Source: Guptibacillus hwajinpoensis (GTDB taxonomy: Bacteria > Bacillota > Bacilli > Bacillales > Bacillaceae_O). Taken from it: a stretch of 64,000 nt of DNA. Location: NCBI GenBank assembly GCA_016841765.1, contig JAENYN010000002.1, positions 62,001-126,000 on the forward strand, written 5' to 3'. Below the pieces are notes generated by a model. That model made no database searches. It was given only the letters and a program-made list of their open reading frames with translations, and was not told the DNA's origin. Shown one piece after another: positions 39,819 to 49,437 of the stretch. How positions within the stretch are numbered: position 1 is the stretch's first letter; every line of letters begins with the position of its first letter. Position numbers and translations under genes: made by a program.

Positions 39819-39825
39819 TGAAAAA

Positions 39826-39869
39826 GGTGCCTGACCCCCGGCGCTTTAGCGCGCCGGGGGTCAGGCACC
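39826..39869. repeat. REP-like palindromic repeat, copy 1
   Basis: GGTGCCTGACCCCCGGCGC, short TTTAGC centre and the inverse arm. It lies eight bases after the yuxL stop. Six copies of the same element occur in the window, all directly downstream of genes outside the defence island. Confidence 0.9.
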
Positions 39870-39912
39870 CAATTTGCCATATGAATTTAGAAAAGGCAGG
39901 TGCAACTTCACA

Positions 39913-40515
39913 TTGAAAAAACTGCTACTGACAGGTTTTGAACCCTTCCTCAACCATAGTCTGAACCCGACCGAAAAAATCGTGAAAGAGTTGGACGGAA
40001 GCGAAATCGGGAATTACCGGATATATGGGCGAGTGCTCCCGGTAGACTATTCCCGGTCTGCCGCACAGCTTATCGATCACTACAATAAAATCAAACCTGA
40101 TACCGTCATTTCACTCGGCCTGGCCGCCGGCAGGAACCGGATAACCCCTGAGCGTGTTGCCATCAATGTGAATGACGGGGTAAGAGATAACAGGGGAGAG
40201 ACGCCGGTCGATGAACGTATCGCTGACGATGGCCCTGATGCGTATTTTTCTACTTTGCCGATTCGGAAGTTTGTGGACGGGTTGCATGAAAAGGGGTTTC
40301 CCGCCGAAATTTCAAATACGGCTGGCACTTATTTGTGCAATAACGTGATGTATCAAATGCTGCATGAGATCAAAATAACCGGTGCTGATTGTTTATCGGG
40401 ATTCGTGCACTTGCCGGCATCCCATGCCCTGGCGATGGAGAATAGGAGTGTGCCGAGCTGGTCTGATGGAGATTTGCTGGCTGCTGTATCGGTGATTGTG
40501 GAAATGGTTGATTGA
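39913..40515 (+). CDS. pcp: Pyroglutamyl-peptidase I
   Basis: Cysteine peptidase (family C15) removing N-terminal pyroglutamate from peptides; cytosolic, 200 residues. TTG at 39913 gives the family-standard MKKLLLTGFEPF; the track start at 39874 lies within repeat-flanking sequence. Seen: GLAAGRNRITPERVAINVND (with the catalytic Glu), NTAGTYLCNNVMYQ with the nucleophile Cys (about residue 140), and FVHLPASH with the catalytic His. The length is normal for the family. The gene is flanked on both sides by palindromic repeats, so it is probably a single-gene transcript. Confidence 0.93.
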   Translation: MKKLLLTGFEPFLNHSLNPTEKIVKELDGSEIGNYRIYGRVLPVDYSRSAAQLIDHYNKIKPDTVISLGLAAGRNRITPERVAINVNDGVRDNRGETPVDERIADDGPDAYFSTLPIRKFVDGLHEKGFPAEISNTAGTYLCNNVMYQMLHEIKITGADCLSGFVHLPASHALAMENRSVPSWSDGDLLAAVSVIVEMVD

Positions 40516-40528
40516 GGGTGGAGGGGGG

Positions 40529-40571
40529 GGGCCTGACCCCCGGCGCTTTAGCGCGCTGGGGGTCAGGCACC
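40529..40571. repeat. REP-like palindromic repeat, copy 2
   Basis: GCCTGACCCCCGGCGCTTTA with the inverse arm GCGCGCTGGGGGTCAGGC; the 5' end has decayed into a G-run. It lies 14 bases after pcp. Confidence 0.85.
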
Positions 40572-40615
40572 TTTAAGCTCCACACTCCTTTTCCACTATT
40601 CCCACCATAAAAACG

Positions 40616-40644
40616 TTGACAGAAAATTCACATTCGTTTATTAT
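40616..40644 (+). promoter_or_regulatory. Sigma-A promoter for the glaH-lhgO leader
   Basis: TTGACA, 17 bases, TATTAT: near-consensus. Transcription would begin near 40651, leaving about 267 bases of leader before glaH. Confidence 0.65.
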
Positions 40645-40650
40645 AATTCT

Positions 40651-40838
40651 TAACAGTAATGAATTCCCGTTTAGAAAGGCAGCCCCTTTCAAAATCCGGC
40701 GAGTCATGCTGCATTCAAAGCATACGTAAATGAATAACGATTATAGACTGTCAAAGCTCCCATAACCTCGGCAAAGGGAAAACGGAGTTTAGAGCCAGTG
40801 ATTTTCCTCAACAGGAGAATTGCTGGCTTTTTGTGTTT
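40651..40838 (+). promoter_or_regulatory. Candidate transcription attenuator or orphan riboswitch before glaH
   Basis: Between promoter and gene lies a folded leader: GAAAGG/CCTTTC hairpin, an ATGCT/AGCAT hairpin, possible closing pairs CCGTTT/AAACGG, then a strong terminator-like hairpin AGCCAGTGATTTTCCT...AGGAGAATTGCTGGCT followed by TTTTT (40793-40833). A terminator upstream of a coding region implies conditional read-through. I do not recognise any known riboswitch consensus (lysine, glycine, SAM and T-box were considered). Confidence 0.5.
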
Positions 40839-40917
40839 GAAAAGGGCCCTTTTCACGTCGGCATGTTGTTTGAAAGCGGGATATCAAAATTTCACATTTA
40901 ATATGGAGGGAAATCAT

Positions 40918-41847
40918 ATGTGCGCGATGAAGGTAGAAGAACAAGCGGTGAAGAAAGGCAATGGCTATACGATTACGGTGAATCCTGACCACAGCAGGCT
41001 TTACAGAGTGGAACTTGACGATGAGGTCATCAAACGCTTCCTTGATGAAACAAAGGATATCGGCAGTCAGCAGCTCGAGTACACCCCCTATATGCGCTTC
41101 TTCGTTTCAGATACGCTGTTGAAGCTCACTGACAAAAGCCTGCAGGATGATGTGCGGAGCATCCTTCATGACCGGAAGACGGGCGGTTTTACGATCGGGC
41201 TGAACGGACTAACAGATGACAAGGATGAATATGTGAAGTTCTCGACGGCTTTGACCCACCTTGTCGGCATCCCGAATTATGACGCGATGAGCGGCAAATA
41301 CTATGCGCGTTTTTCCGTGAAGCATACGGATAACAGCGATTCATACCTGCGCCAGGCGTACCGCCAGTTCACGCTTCACACGGATGGAACGTATGTGGAT
41401 GAGCCGACAGACTGGCTTCTCATGATGAAGTTCGAAGAGAAGAATGCGGTTGGCGGCCGTTCACGCCTGCTCCACCTTGATGACTGGGAAGATCTCGATA
41501 AGTTTTACACTCATCCGCTTGCGAAGCAGAAGATCGTCTACAAGGCGCCGCCAAGCAAGAATGTGGAAGAAACCGTTTTGCGGACGACGTTTTACGAGCA
41601 TAACAATGGGCCGTGCATCTGCTTCATCGACCAGTTCGCCAATCCGGAGAACATCCAGGAGGCCAATTACTTGAAAGAACTGTCCGACTCAATGGAAAAT
41701 TCCCCGGCTACATTCGGGCTTGACCTGCCGTCCGGCGAGCTGATCATGCTGAACAACCGGTTCTGGCTGCATGGCCGTGAAGCGTTTGAACGCAATCCTG
41801 AACTGCACCGTGAACTGCTGCGCCAGCGCGGCCGGTTTGCGCGCTAA
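40918..41847 (+). CDS. glaH: Glutarate 2-hydroxylase GlaH (CsiD family)
   Basis: Fe(II)/2-oxoglutarate dioxygenase converting glutarate to L-2-hydroxyglutarate with release of succinate, a step in lysine catabolism through glutarate. ATG at 40918 has GGAGGG seven bases upstream; the track start at 40798 lies in the leader terminator. Seen: the metal-binding HTDGTYVDEP (His and Asp about residues 154-156), distal His in NNRFWLHGRE (about 286), and the following Arg-rich stretch for 2-oxoglutarate. Length of 309 residues is normal. It is followed after 87 bases by lhgO, which consumes the product, giving a functional pair as in E. coli glaH-lhgO. Confidence 0.92.
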   Translation: MCAMKVEEQAVKKGNGYTITVNPDHSRLYRVELDDEVIKRFLDETKDIGSQQLEYTPYMRFFVSDTLLKLTDKSLQDDVRSILHDRKTGGFTIGLNGLTDDKDEYVKFSTALTHLVGIPNYDAMSGKYYARFSVKHTDNSDSYLRQAYRQFTLHTDGTYVDEPTDWLLMMKFEEKNAVGGRSRLLHLDDWEDLDKFYTHPLAKQKIVYKAPPSKNVEETVLRTTFYEHNNGPCICFIDQFANPENIQEANYLKELSDSMENSPATFGLDLPSGELIMLNNRFWLHGREAFERNPELHRELLRQRGRFAR

Positions 41848-41934: not shown

Positions 41935-43152
41935 ATGTATGATTTTGCGGTAATCGGCGGCGGGATTGTCGGCCTGTCGACGGCTCTGGCCCTGTCAGAC
42001 CGGTTTCCTGCTGCCAAAATAGCAGTCATCGAAAAAGAGGAAAAACTGGCGGCCCATCAGACCGGGCGCAACAGCGGCGTCATTCATTCCGGCATCTATT
42101 ACAAGCCGGGCAGCCTGAAGGCGCAGCTTGCCGTCAAAGGGAGCCGGTCGATGGTCGAGTTCAGCAGGGAGCACGGCATTGACCATGATGTTTGCGGAAA
42201 AGTGATTGTCGCGACCGAAGAAAAAGAGCTTCCGATCATGGACAACCTGTACAGACGCGGTCTTGAAAATGGGCTTGCTGTTTCGAAAATATCACCGGAA
42301 GAAACCCATGAGATCGAGCCGTATGTCAACACGGTCGGAGCTCTCAGGGTCCCGAGTACCGGGATTGTCAATTACAGCCAGGTGACGGAAACGATCGGGC
42401 GCCTGCTCATCGAACGGGGCGCAGATATTCTGCTCGGCACCACCGTGAAGGATATTGCCGACCGTACCGATGAAGTGACAATCCAGACGGATAAAGGCGA
42501 GGTGCGAGCCGGATTTCTCGTCAATTGTGCCGGGCTGCACAGCGACCGGATGGCGAAAGCGGCCGGCATCCATACCGATTTGAAAATCGTGCCGTTCCGC
42601 GGTGAGTATTATGAATTGACGGAAGAGAAGCGCCATCTTGTCAAAAACCTCATTTATCCGGTACCGAATCCGGACTTCCCGTTCCTCGGCGTCCATTTGA
42701 CGCGGATGATCGACGGCACGATTCATGCCGGCCCGAATGCCGTCCTGAGCTTCAAACGGGAAGGCTACCGCAAGACGGACTTCAACTTGAAGGATGCTTT
42801 TGACGTGCTGACGTTCCCGGGCTTCTGGAAAATGGCGGGCGGCAACCTGAAGGAAGGGATGATGGAAATGGTCCGTTCCTTCCATAAACAGACGTTTGTG
42901 AAAAGCCTGCAGCGGCTTGTCCCGGATATTATGGAGGATGATGTCATCCCGACACATGCCGGTGTGCGCGCCCAGGCCATGCTGATGAACGGACAGCTTG
43001 TTGATGACTTTTTCGTTATTCCGGGCAAGCGCTCGATTCACGTCTGCAACGCACCGTCTCCGGCTGCCACCGCTTCGCTTGAAATCGGGAAGGTGATCGC
43101 GGAGCGGGCGGCAGAACGGCTGCCTGAACAGCGGGTTGCGGAGAAAGTCTAG
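41935..43152 (+). CDS. lhgO: L-2-hydroxyglutarate oxidase LhgO
   Basis: FAD-dependent oxidase/dehydrogenase turning L-2-hydroxyglutarate into 2-oxoglutarate, regenerating the GlaH cosubstrate and passing electrons to the quinone pool in characterised relatives. Seen: Rossmann FAD motif VIGGGIVGLSTALALS at residues about 6-21, AHQTGRNSGVIHSGIYY (substrate and flavin region), FRGEYYEL, and the C-terminal NAPSPAATASLEIG. GGAGAGG lies ahead of the ATG. It shares the promoter and attenuator with glaH. Length of 405 residues is typical. Confidence 0.92.
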   Translation: MYDFAVIGGGIVGLSTALALSDRFPAAKIAVIEKEEKLAAHQTGRNSGVIHSGIYYKPGSLKAQLAVKGSRSMVEFSREHGIDHDVCGKVIVATEEKELPIMDNLYRRGLENGLAVSKISPEETHEIEPYVNTVGALRVPSTGIVNYSQVTETIGRLLIERGADILLGTTVKDIADRTDEVTIQTDKGEVRAGFLVNCAGLHSDRMAKAAGIHTDLKIVPFRGEYYELTEEKRHLVKNLIYPVPNPDFPFLGVHLTRMIDGTIHAGPNAVLSFKREGYRKTDFNLKDAFDVLTFPGFWKMAGGNLKEGMMEMVRSFHKQTFVKSLQRLVPDIMEDDVIPTHAGVRAQAMLMNGQLVDDFFVIPGKRSIHVCNAPSPAATASLEIGKVIAERAAERLPEQRVAEKV

Positions 43153-45593: not shown

Positions 45594-45902
45594 TTATGCC
45601 ATCATCTGCTCATACTGCTTATAAGAATCCTTCAATGCAGCCGCCAGGGCATTCTCCGCTTTGCCGTGATAGCCTTCTGCCAGCAGTTTGAGCGGTTCGT
45701 CGATTCCGTCTTTGAGGCTGCAGCCTTTCAGCAGGTGTTTGACGAAGGTGCGGCCGTGTTCGGTGGCGAGTGTGCACGATGCGTCCACGATGACGCCGTA
45801 TTTTTTGTCAATTTCAAGTGTCATTGTCAGTGTTTCGGATATGCTGTTTGCGGCCATGCCGGACGGCAGCCGGGAATGGCCTGCGATTAAGAGTGTGTTC
45901 AT
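45594..45902 (-). CDS. DUF3870 domain-containing protein
   Basis: About 102 residues, matching the DUF3870 pattern: GHSRLPSGMAANSI at the start, YGVIVDASCTLATEHGRTFV in the middle and YHGKAENALAAALKDSYKQY at the end. Function unknown; relatives often sit next to carboxylate transport and catabolic genes, as here next to dctB. The ATG at 45902 is preferred; TTG at 45905 is equally possible. It follows dctB by 19 bases on the minus strand and is likely cotranscribed. Confidence 0.75.
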   Translation of the reverse strand: MNTLLIAGHSRLPSGMAANSISETLTMTLEIDKKYGVIVDASCTLATEHGRTFVKHLLKGCSLKDGIDEPLKLLAEGYHGKAENALAAALKDSYKQYEQMMA

Positions 45903-45921
45903 CAAAGCTCCCCCCGTGACA

Positions 45922-46980
45922 TCATTTCATGTATTTTTCGCGTAATTGGTAGACTTCTTTCATTAACTTGCCGTCGATTTCCGGCTCGAATCGTTCGTAG
46001 ACAGGCTGCAGGGCGTTTTGCCAGCGGCTCTGTTCCTCTTTTGTCAGCACATGGATTTCCATGTCGCTGTTCCTTTTTAACGCACGGACGTAGCGGTCGT
46101 TCATTTCGATTGAATGGCGCCGCACCCAGTCGGTTGTTTCATCAAGGGATGCCTGAATTTGCTCCTGGATATCTTTCGGCAGGCTGTCCCAGAATTGCTG
46201 GTTGATGAGCACGACCGAACCGAGGTAGCCGTGATTGCTCATCGTCAAGTATTGCTGTTCGAGGTAGAATCGTTTCGTGTAAATGTTGGCGATCGTGTTT
46301 TCCTGGCCGTCGATGAAATCGACCTCAAGGTTGCGGTACGTTTTATTGAAAGGGATGACGCTTGTACTTGCGTTCAATTGATCGAACTGTTCTTTGATGA
46401 CGGCGCTCGGCATGATGCGGAAATGCAGCCGTTTGAAATCGTATGGATGGATGATCGGGCGCCTGTCGTTTGTCACCTGCTTGAAGCCGCTGTACCAGAA
46501 GGTGAGGCCTTTTACCGGTTCGCCTTCAAGGTCGGCCATCAGCTGTTGGCCGATCGGCCCTTTGTAGGCCTCTTCAACGGCGGCGTAGTTCGGAAACAAA
46601 AATGGCAAATCGAGCACCTGCCAGTTCGGGAAGCGGGACGTCATTTTCGAAGTGGCGGGTGCGATCATTTCGACATGGCCGTCTTCGACCGCTTTGTATT
46701 CGTTTATATCACCGTATAAAACTCCGTTGGCATATACTTCGACCTTCACTTTCCCATCTGTCCGTTCCTGCACAAGGCTGGCGAACCGCCTGACCGCCTG
46801 TCCTTTCGGCGTGTTTTCAGCCGCGACATGGCTGAACCGCAGGACGATCTGGTCATCGAGCCCTTCCTGTTCATCATCGGCGGCAAGCGGCGCCCTGCCG
46901 CCCTGGATGTCGAATCCGATGAATACGGCGGTGAAAAGTCCGGCGATAATAAAGATGGAGATGGCGAAGACTGTCCGCAT
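45922..46980 (-). CDS. dctB: TRAP-type C4-dicarboxylate binding protein, DctB-like co-sensor
   Basis: DctP-family extracytoplasmic solute-binding protein of 352 residues. Seen: an N-terminal hydrophobic anchor (residues 3-23), VLRFSHVAAENTPKG at the mature start, and LHFRIMPSAV with the arginine that binds the carboxylate. In B. subtilis, DctB assists the DctS sensor kinase rather than transport. The divergent position against dctS-dctR (86 bases between starts) supports the same co-sensor role here. GGAGGGGGA ribosome binding site. Alternative: the binding protein of a DctQM transporter elsewhere. Confidence 0.82.
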   Translation of the reverse strand: MRTVFAISIFIIAGLFTAVFIGFDIQGGRAPLAADDEQEGLDDQIVLRFSHVAAENTPKGQAVRRFASLVQERTDGKVKVEVYANGVLYGDINEYKAVEDGHVEMIAPATSKMTSRFPNWQVLDLPFLFPNYAAVEEAYKGPIGQQLMADLEGEPVKGLTFWYSGFKQVTNDRRPIIHPYDFKRLHFRIMPSAVIKEQFDQLNASTSVIPFNKTYRNLEVDFIDGQENTIANIYTKRFYLEQQYLTMSNHGYLGSVVLINQQFWDSLPKDIQEQIQASLDETTDWVRRHSIEMNDRYVRALKRNSDMEIHVLTKEEQSRWQNALQPVYERFEPEIDGKLMKEVYQLREKYMK

Positions 46981-49393: not shown

Positions 49394-49437
49394 GGTGCCT
49401 GACCCCCGGCGCGTTAAAGCGCCGGGGGTCAGGCACC
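49394..49437. repeat. REP-like palindromic repeat, copy 3
   Basis: GGTGCCTGACCCCCGGCGC, GTTAAA centre and inverse arm, followed by TTTTT; five bases after the dctR stop. It can act as the dctR terminator. Confidence 0.9.

Follow-up and report, generated by a model that had tools for sequence, protein, structure and literature searches.

What controls glaH and lhgO in this genome, and which signal would the control respond to? The window, meaning the whole analysed stretch of 64,000 nucleotides, carries both genes behind a leader. An earlier note, made without database searches, had described a near-consensus promoter, about 140 bases with several possible helices, a strong terminator hairpin with a T-run and then glaH-lhgO, and had read this as a candidate orphan riboswitch or attenuator that serves glutarate catabolism. 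Each part of this layout was confirmed (Table 1). The promoter matches the consensus at 11 of 12 positions and ranks best among 13 sites in 5 kb. Transcription is inferred to start near 40651. The element TTGACAGAA(A/T) was also found ahead of the leader RNA in 26 of 74 glaH leaders. The terminator hairpin (40791-40830) is followed by a T-run, and its trimmed form has a folding energy of -23.6 kcal/mol. A ribosome-binding site, GGAGG, lies at 40905-40909 before glaH. The closest named GlaH proteins come from Pseudalkalibacillus (about 72% identical), and the window genome is of the Bacillales type.

Table 1. Features of the glaH leader and its operon (window coordinates).
Feature	Position	Strand	Remarks
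Sigma-A type promoter	40616-40644	+	-35 TTGACA 40616-40621, 17-nt spacer, -10 TATTAT 40639-40644
Leader RNA, full covariance-model match	40661-40799	+	Model R1, 84.9 bits, E 6.4e-15
Domain 1	40654-40711	+	P1 and P2; covariation; -17.2 kcal/mol folded alone
P1	40662-40668 with 40698-40705	+	In this species extended outward to 40654/40711
P2	40670-40679 with 40685-40693	+	Covariation
Linker between domains 1 and 2	40712-40746	+	Variable in length and sequence (alignment A1)
Antiterminator helix, 5' strand ACUG	40747-40750	+	Pairs with CAGU 40796-40799
Domain 2 core	40754-40790	+	P3 (40754-40760 with 40784-40790) and P4 (about 40766-40776); covariation
Intrinsic terminator	40791-40832	+	GAGCCAGUGAUUUUCC-UCAA-CAGGAGAAUUGCUGGCUUUUU; CAGU of the antiterminator helix lies inside its 5' strand
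Perfect palindrome	40838-40855	+	TGAAAAGGGCCCTTTTCA; between terminator and glaH
glaH (csiD), glutarate dioxygenase	40918-41847	+	NF002814, 457 bits against a cut-off of 333, E 3.4e-137
lhgO, L-2-hydroxyglutarate oxidase	41935-43152	+	NF008726, E 2.4e-175

The leader (40651-40840) folded to -57.5 kcal/mol (z = -3.85), and none of 200 shuffles equalled it. Much of this energy is supplied by the terminator. Therefore, the fold of a single sequence is weak evidence, and conservation was tested instead. The decisive evidence for the leader is its conservation across genera with covariation. GlaH homologues were taken from named genomes (L004-L083) and relatives (L084-L113). Upstream of many of their genes the same blocks recurred, namely TTTAGAAAGG...CCTTTCAAAATC, then ACTG...GCCAGT, and a terminator ending in CTGGC-TTTTT. 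The leaders of 47 glaH genes were aligned with MAFFT by sequence alone (alignment A1). MAFFT and RNAalifold on separate domains gave only part of the structure, which was then set by hand and tested. The structure common to the 47 leaders consists of domain 1 (the P1/P2 hairpin), a linker and domain 2 (an ACUG/CAGU helix enclosing P3/P4). With its five helices and 32 pairs, 87.2% of the cells were paired, compared with 72.6 ± 0.7 in shuffles. The covariation score was 0.483 against 0.223 ± 0.010 in shuffles, and double changes occurred at 28 of the 32 pairs. Every slid control failed, and covariation fell to about 0.15 or less when partners were moved by 1-3 columns. Since the structure was derived from the same 47 sequences on which it was tested, the paired percentage is somewhat inflated, whereas the double changes are not affected to such a degree.

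In a 112-row alignment fitted to the model, the strongest covarying column pairs were the proposed pairs. P3 and P4 were paired in 90.7% and 87% of cells, respectively (108 sequences), with double changes at every pair. Domain 1 covaries as strongly as domain 2. Some members (L153, L160, L191, and L192) seem to lack its canonical form or to have it changed, so domain 2 may be the core. Mutual information gave one extra nested pair in the search for pseudoknots and loop-loop contacts, and no convincing interdomain pair. There was no obvious strictly conserved unpaired pocket, and the P3-P4 internal loop varies by clade (alignment A2). Compensating base changes preserve the shape of the leader across dozens of bacterial genera, where it almost always stands ahead of glutarate-breakdown genes. 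It is near certain that this RNA is a real, widespread and undescribed cis-regulatory element of glutarate catabolism. The conserved structured 5' leader with covarying helices that is expected of a riboswitch is present.

The mode of control can be read from the end of the leader. The CAGU strand that pairs with ACUG also belongs to the 5' strand of the terminator, GCCAGU. Because this strand is common to both, the ACUG/CAGU helix and the terminator are mutually exclusive. The outer pair of the helix is A-U in 94, G-C in 7 and G-U in 7 of 108 distinct sequences and is unpaired in none, while the remaining three pairs are nearly invariant. The ACUG strand has no part in the terminator itself. 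When window transcripts of growing length were folded, the ACUG/CAGU helix was part of the minimum-energy structure for 3' ends as far as 40823, and at 40827 the terminator had taken its place. The antiterminator helix is short, with only 4 pairs. The mutually exclusive structures required of an expression platform are present, and control through terminator/antiterminator exchange is very likely. Given a ligand that stabilises domain 2, this anatomy would be that of an ON switch acting on transcription; both the direction and the ligand binding are inferred.

No known family accounts for the leader. Rfam at the gathering score gave no match in the whole window, and no match in 40500-41000 looked real at E up to 10. 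Across the window and 22 related loci, Rfam 15 (4227 families tested, among them every curated riboswitch as well as the lysine L box) gave only unrelated matches, and no T-box model matched. According to the earlier note, none of the known riboswitch consensuses that it considered fits, and Rfam indeed contains no matching family. It had also named two outcomes that would refute its proposal, a leader not conserved upstream of other glaH genes and an Rfam match to a known element. Neither occurred. The proposal of an orphan riboswitch or attenuator is supported by a conserved and covarying leader that is not known to Rfam, in the absence of binding data. No description of a leader RNA or riboswitch for glaH/csiD, glutarate, glutaryl-CoA dehydrogenase or 5-aminovalerate was found in the open-licence literature, including recent lists of orphans. 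As only open-licence papers were covered, a prior description cannot be excluded. Reviews count about 55 validated riboswitch classes. A survey of riboswitch ligands mentions neither glutarate nor any other dicarboxylate (PMC9971707).

Several known systems resemble the glaH leader in part. The lysine riboswitch (L box, RF00168) belongs to the wider lysine pathway and likewise combines a leader RNA with a terminator of transcription. However, its architecture is different, and Rfam gave no match of the glaH leader to it. The L box also acts as an OFF switch on biosynthesis and transport genes, in contrast to the glaH leader with its place ahead of catabolic genes. The glycine (gcvT) riboswitch, an ON-type catabolic switch, likewise precedes degradation genes with expected induction by the pathway substrate, but its gene set is different and its Rfam sequence and structure do not match the glaH leader. 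CsiR, GcdR and LhgR regulate glutarate and L-2-hydroxyglutarate catabolism and, if our reading is right, the signal would be common (glutarate in the case of CsiR). In contrast to the glaH element, which is an RNA with a terminator, they are proteins that bind DNA at promoters. The odc1 motif, a candidate structured RNA, has pfam02515 CoA-transferases among the genes that follow it (PMC8632094). It is an alphaproteobacterial single hairpin with a pseudoknot and an 11-aa uORF, it controls translation start, and no terminator was described (PMC8632094). The glaH leader was rejected as an odc1 motif because the architecture differs.

The distribution of the leader was determined with covariance models. 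R1, trained on glaH leaders only, was run over 399 genomes of the order and matched in 68 of them, some of which have two to four copies; the window leader is the single R1 copy in its own genome. All of the 29 GlaH-positive relatives carried an R1 match, and among 250 genomes there were 11 RNA-positive ones that had no GlaH over the cut-off. A wider model, R2, was run on 350 genomes from other orders of the class; 27 of these had copies, and the genes downstream were of the same kinds. In Gammaproteobacteria, R2 gave clear copies in two MAGs, one of Wohlfahrtiimonas (L069) and one of a member of the Lysobacteraceae (L071), which R1 had already matched, and a weak copy in Ignatzschineria (L072). 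Three loci (L065, L070, and L074) look similar by eye and are not detected by R2.

Apart from glaH, the commonest target is a CaiB-type CoA-transferase, followed by an acyl-CoA dehydrogenase. The best NCBIfam match of the former is succinate-glutarate CoA-transferase and its best PDB matches are 9br6/9br7, succinate-hydroxymethylglutarate CoA-transferase (SUGCT), at 1e-104. The latter is best matched in NCBIfam by glutaryl-CoA dehydrogenase (GcdH), and its second-best PDB match is a glutaryl-CoA dehydrogenase (3mpi). Since neither NCBIfam score reaches its curated cut-off, the exact substrates are inferred. Further targets are a 4-aminobutyrate/5-aminovalerate transaminase (GabT) with a semialdehyde dehydrogenase (ALDH), caprolactamase-type CapAB, GntR-lhgO, and transporters, namely APC permeases, a PotABCD-like ABC transporter, and TRAP (DctM and TAXI) followed by the CoA-transferase. 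GlaH, LhgO, CoA-transferase, GcdH, GabT, ALDH or CapA was encoded within the first three same-strand genes at 83 of 106 automatically classified places, and reading the remaining places added at least six (L152 3375-, L163, L165, L247, L161 4567+, and L064 5088+). The fraction is a description and not a statistic, because the set includes close relatives and the glaH set itself. A few copies, mostly weaker, precede genes without a clear glutarate link (SAV0927-like, DUF3870, M3 peptidase, and luciferase-like). With their substrates partly inferred, the downstream genes serve to form, take up or use glutarate or its precursors, and the association with the pathway genes of one metabolite that is expected of a riboswitch is met.

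Conserved structure, mutually exclusive pairing, an intrinsic terminator and an association with glutarate genes were observed computationally. We consider it probable that the leader represents an undescribed class of antitermination cis-regulatory RNA, most likely a glutarate-binding riboswitch that switches the operon on; binding, ligand identity and the ON direction are inferred. It is likely a metabolite-binding riboswitch, although direct binding of a small molecule is itself an inference, and the explanation is limited by the lack of binding, probing or expression data. In the nascent RNA, domain 1 would fold first and then domain 2, with the ACUG/CAGU helix closed round P3/P4. Without ligand, the terminator hairpin would invade and take CAGU, and transcription would end about 85 nt upstream of glaH. 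A bound ligand would stabilise domain 2 (together with domain 1) and so keep CAGU in the antiterminator helix, and read-through would follow.

Glutarate is favoured as the ligand in the absence of binding data. The GlaH-LhgO and CoA-transferase-GcdH routes have glutarate as their common substrate and diverge below it, and the transaminase, dehydrogenase, lactamase and transporters lead to it. Therefore, glutarate is the most economical signal. It is also plausible as a pathway signal because in E. coli glutarate relieves repression of the csiD operon by way of the CsiR protein (PMC6265302). The earlier note had suggested a lysine-pathway intermediate such as glutarate or 2-hydroxyglutarate, and only the first of these remains attractive. 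L-2-Hydroxyglutarate is unlikely because the 11 RNA-bearing genomes mentioned above have no GlaH over the cut-off and copies precede the CoA-transferase/GcdH route in genomes without GlaH. In our ranking, glutarate stands first and 5-aminovalerate next.

Among the other readings, a leader that is the target of a glutarate-responsive RNA-binding antiterminator protein, rather than a metabolite-binding RNA, is unlikely but has to be kept in mind. The overlap of domain 2 with the terminator resembles that of ribonucleic antiterminator sites, and the clade-dependent internal loops without a strictly conserved pocket would suit a protein. However, two covarying domains over about 140 nt exceed what such sites, for example those of the BglG/LicT type, need, and no one gene recurs beside all copies. 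The other main rival, about as unlikely, is that the same switch responds to 5-aminovalerate or another precursor (such as glutarate semialdehyde or delta-valerolactam). Several copies do stand ahead of genes of 5-aminovalerate metabolism, namely GabT/ALDH, an APC permease, a PotABCD-like transporter adjoining an aminotransferase, and the CapAB lactamase. On the other hand, many copies control only glutarate-consuming genes, that is glaH-lhgO, CoA-transferase-GcdH, or TRAP with CoA-transferase (L169, L172, L180, and L248), and the known protein regulator CsiR responds specifically to glutarate (PMC6265302).

Leader-peptide attenuation, in which translation of a short frame chooses between two hairpins, was rejected as very improbable. 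An ATG near 40660 of the window opens a frame of 24 codons, but it has no ribosome-binding site, its distance from the inferred start is about 10 nt, and other members (L004, L006, and L052, for example) do not have it. A conserved short frame with a ribosome-binding site, as this mechanism demands, is not present, and the paired base changes run through the whole leader. Chance hairpins ahead of an ordinary terminator, without any regulatory role, could appeal only to the weak, terminator-dominated single-sequence fold and are practically ruled out, already refuted by covariation beyond shuffles and slid controls and by model matches ahead of pathway-related genes outside the training set.

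We give slightly better than even chances to a new class of riboswitch for glutarate. Its regulon would take in the two routes of glutarate use and the formation of glutarate from 5-aminovalerate, from valerolactam and perhaps from trimethylaminovalerate, along with transporters and a family of tiny Cys-rich proteins, in many Bacilli and a few gammaproteobacteria. The class was found with its regulon intact, so that its ligand can be tested directly and the leader with its terminator is available as a ready-made construct. If true, the reading would explain the control of lysine, 5-aminovalerate and glutarate breakdown in many Bacilli. It would provide a riboswitch for a simple dicarboxylate without a validated riboswitch in the above survey (PMC9971707), and a sensor of glutarate for the engineering of nylon precursors. 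A place in glutarate metabolism would also be given to unknown genes with the same leader (transporters, a Rieske oxygenase/BCCT pair, and the tiny Cys-rich proteins).

Some further observations were made at these loci. A tiny Cys-rich protein with a ribosome-binding site, such as MCKKTGCGKCKDCPLANVEKKSK or MCKLASGCKNCGGCKNSGKVIKQQKK, recurs directly behind leader copies (L150:515-, L152:524-, L155:518-, L156, L158, L159, L064:230+, L061:3514+, L036:3408+, and L162), and also directly 3' of glaH in L058 and L059. All five of the proteins tested had no NCBIfam family match. They are possibly metal or Fe-S helpers of the pathway. On the minus strand of L145 (5316-5455), a leader copy precedes a Rieske ring-hydroxylating oxygenase and a BCCT betaine transporter, and adjoins copies before a semialdehyde dehydrogenase and a CoA-transferase/GcdH pair. 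This cluster suggests that 5-trimethylaminovalerate is degraded to glutarate semialdehyde. At a distance of a few kb from glaH, a DctP-type TRAP solute-binding protein is encoded next to a DUF3870 protein (window 45594-46980, minus strand), and another DUF3870 gene (L227) directly follows a leader copy, hinting at a role of DUF3870 together with dicarboxylate uptake.

In the own genome, a 48-nt, 80% identical match to the linker region (L003:1501-1549, E 7e-4) lies inside a CdaR-type regulator gene. It was dropped as a second leader because of this coding position, and is a chance match or a decayed fragment. A near-identical GC-rich palindrome, GGTGCCTGACCCCCGGCGC-TTTA-GCGC(C/T)GGGGGTCAGGCACC, occurs in the window at 39825-39870, at about 40524-40571, and near 49394, 54270, 60848 and 62045. 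Its 18-nt arm has 76 genome matches per strand with at most 2 mismatches, and it is a dispersed REP-like element. The palindrome between terminator and glaH, centred on GGCC/GGGCCC, is also found in other halophilic Bacillaceae (L014, L017-L021, L026, L037, L089, L100, and L101), where the arms differ between species and stay self-complementary. In Thalassobacillus cyri (L006:1934-2051), a BsrF small RNA (RF01411, 77 bits) lies just upstream of the glaH leader.
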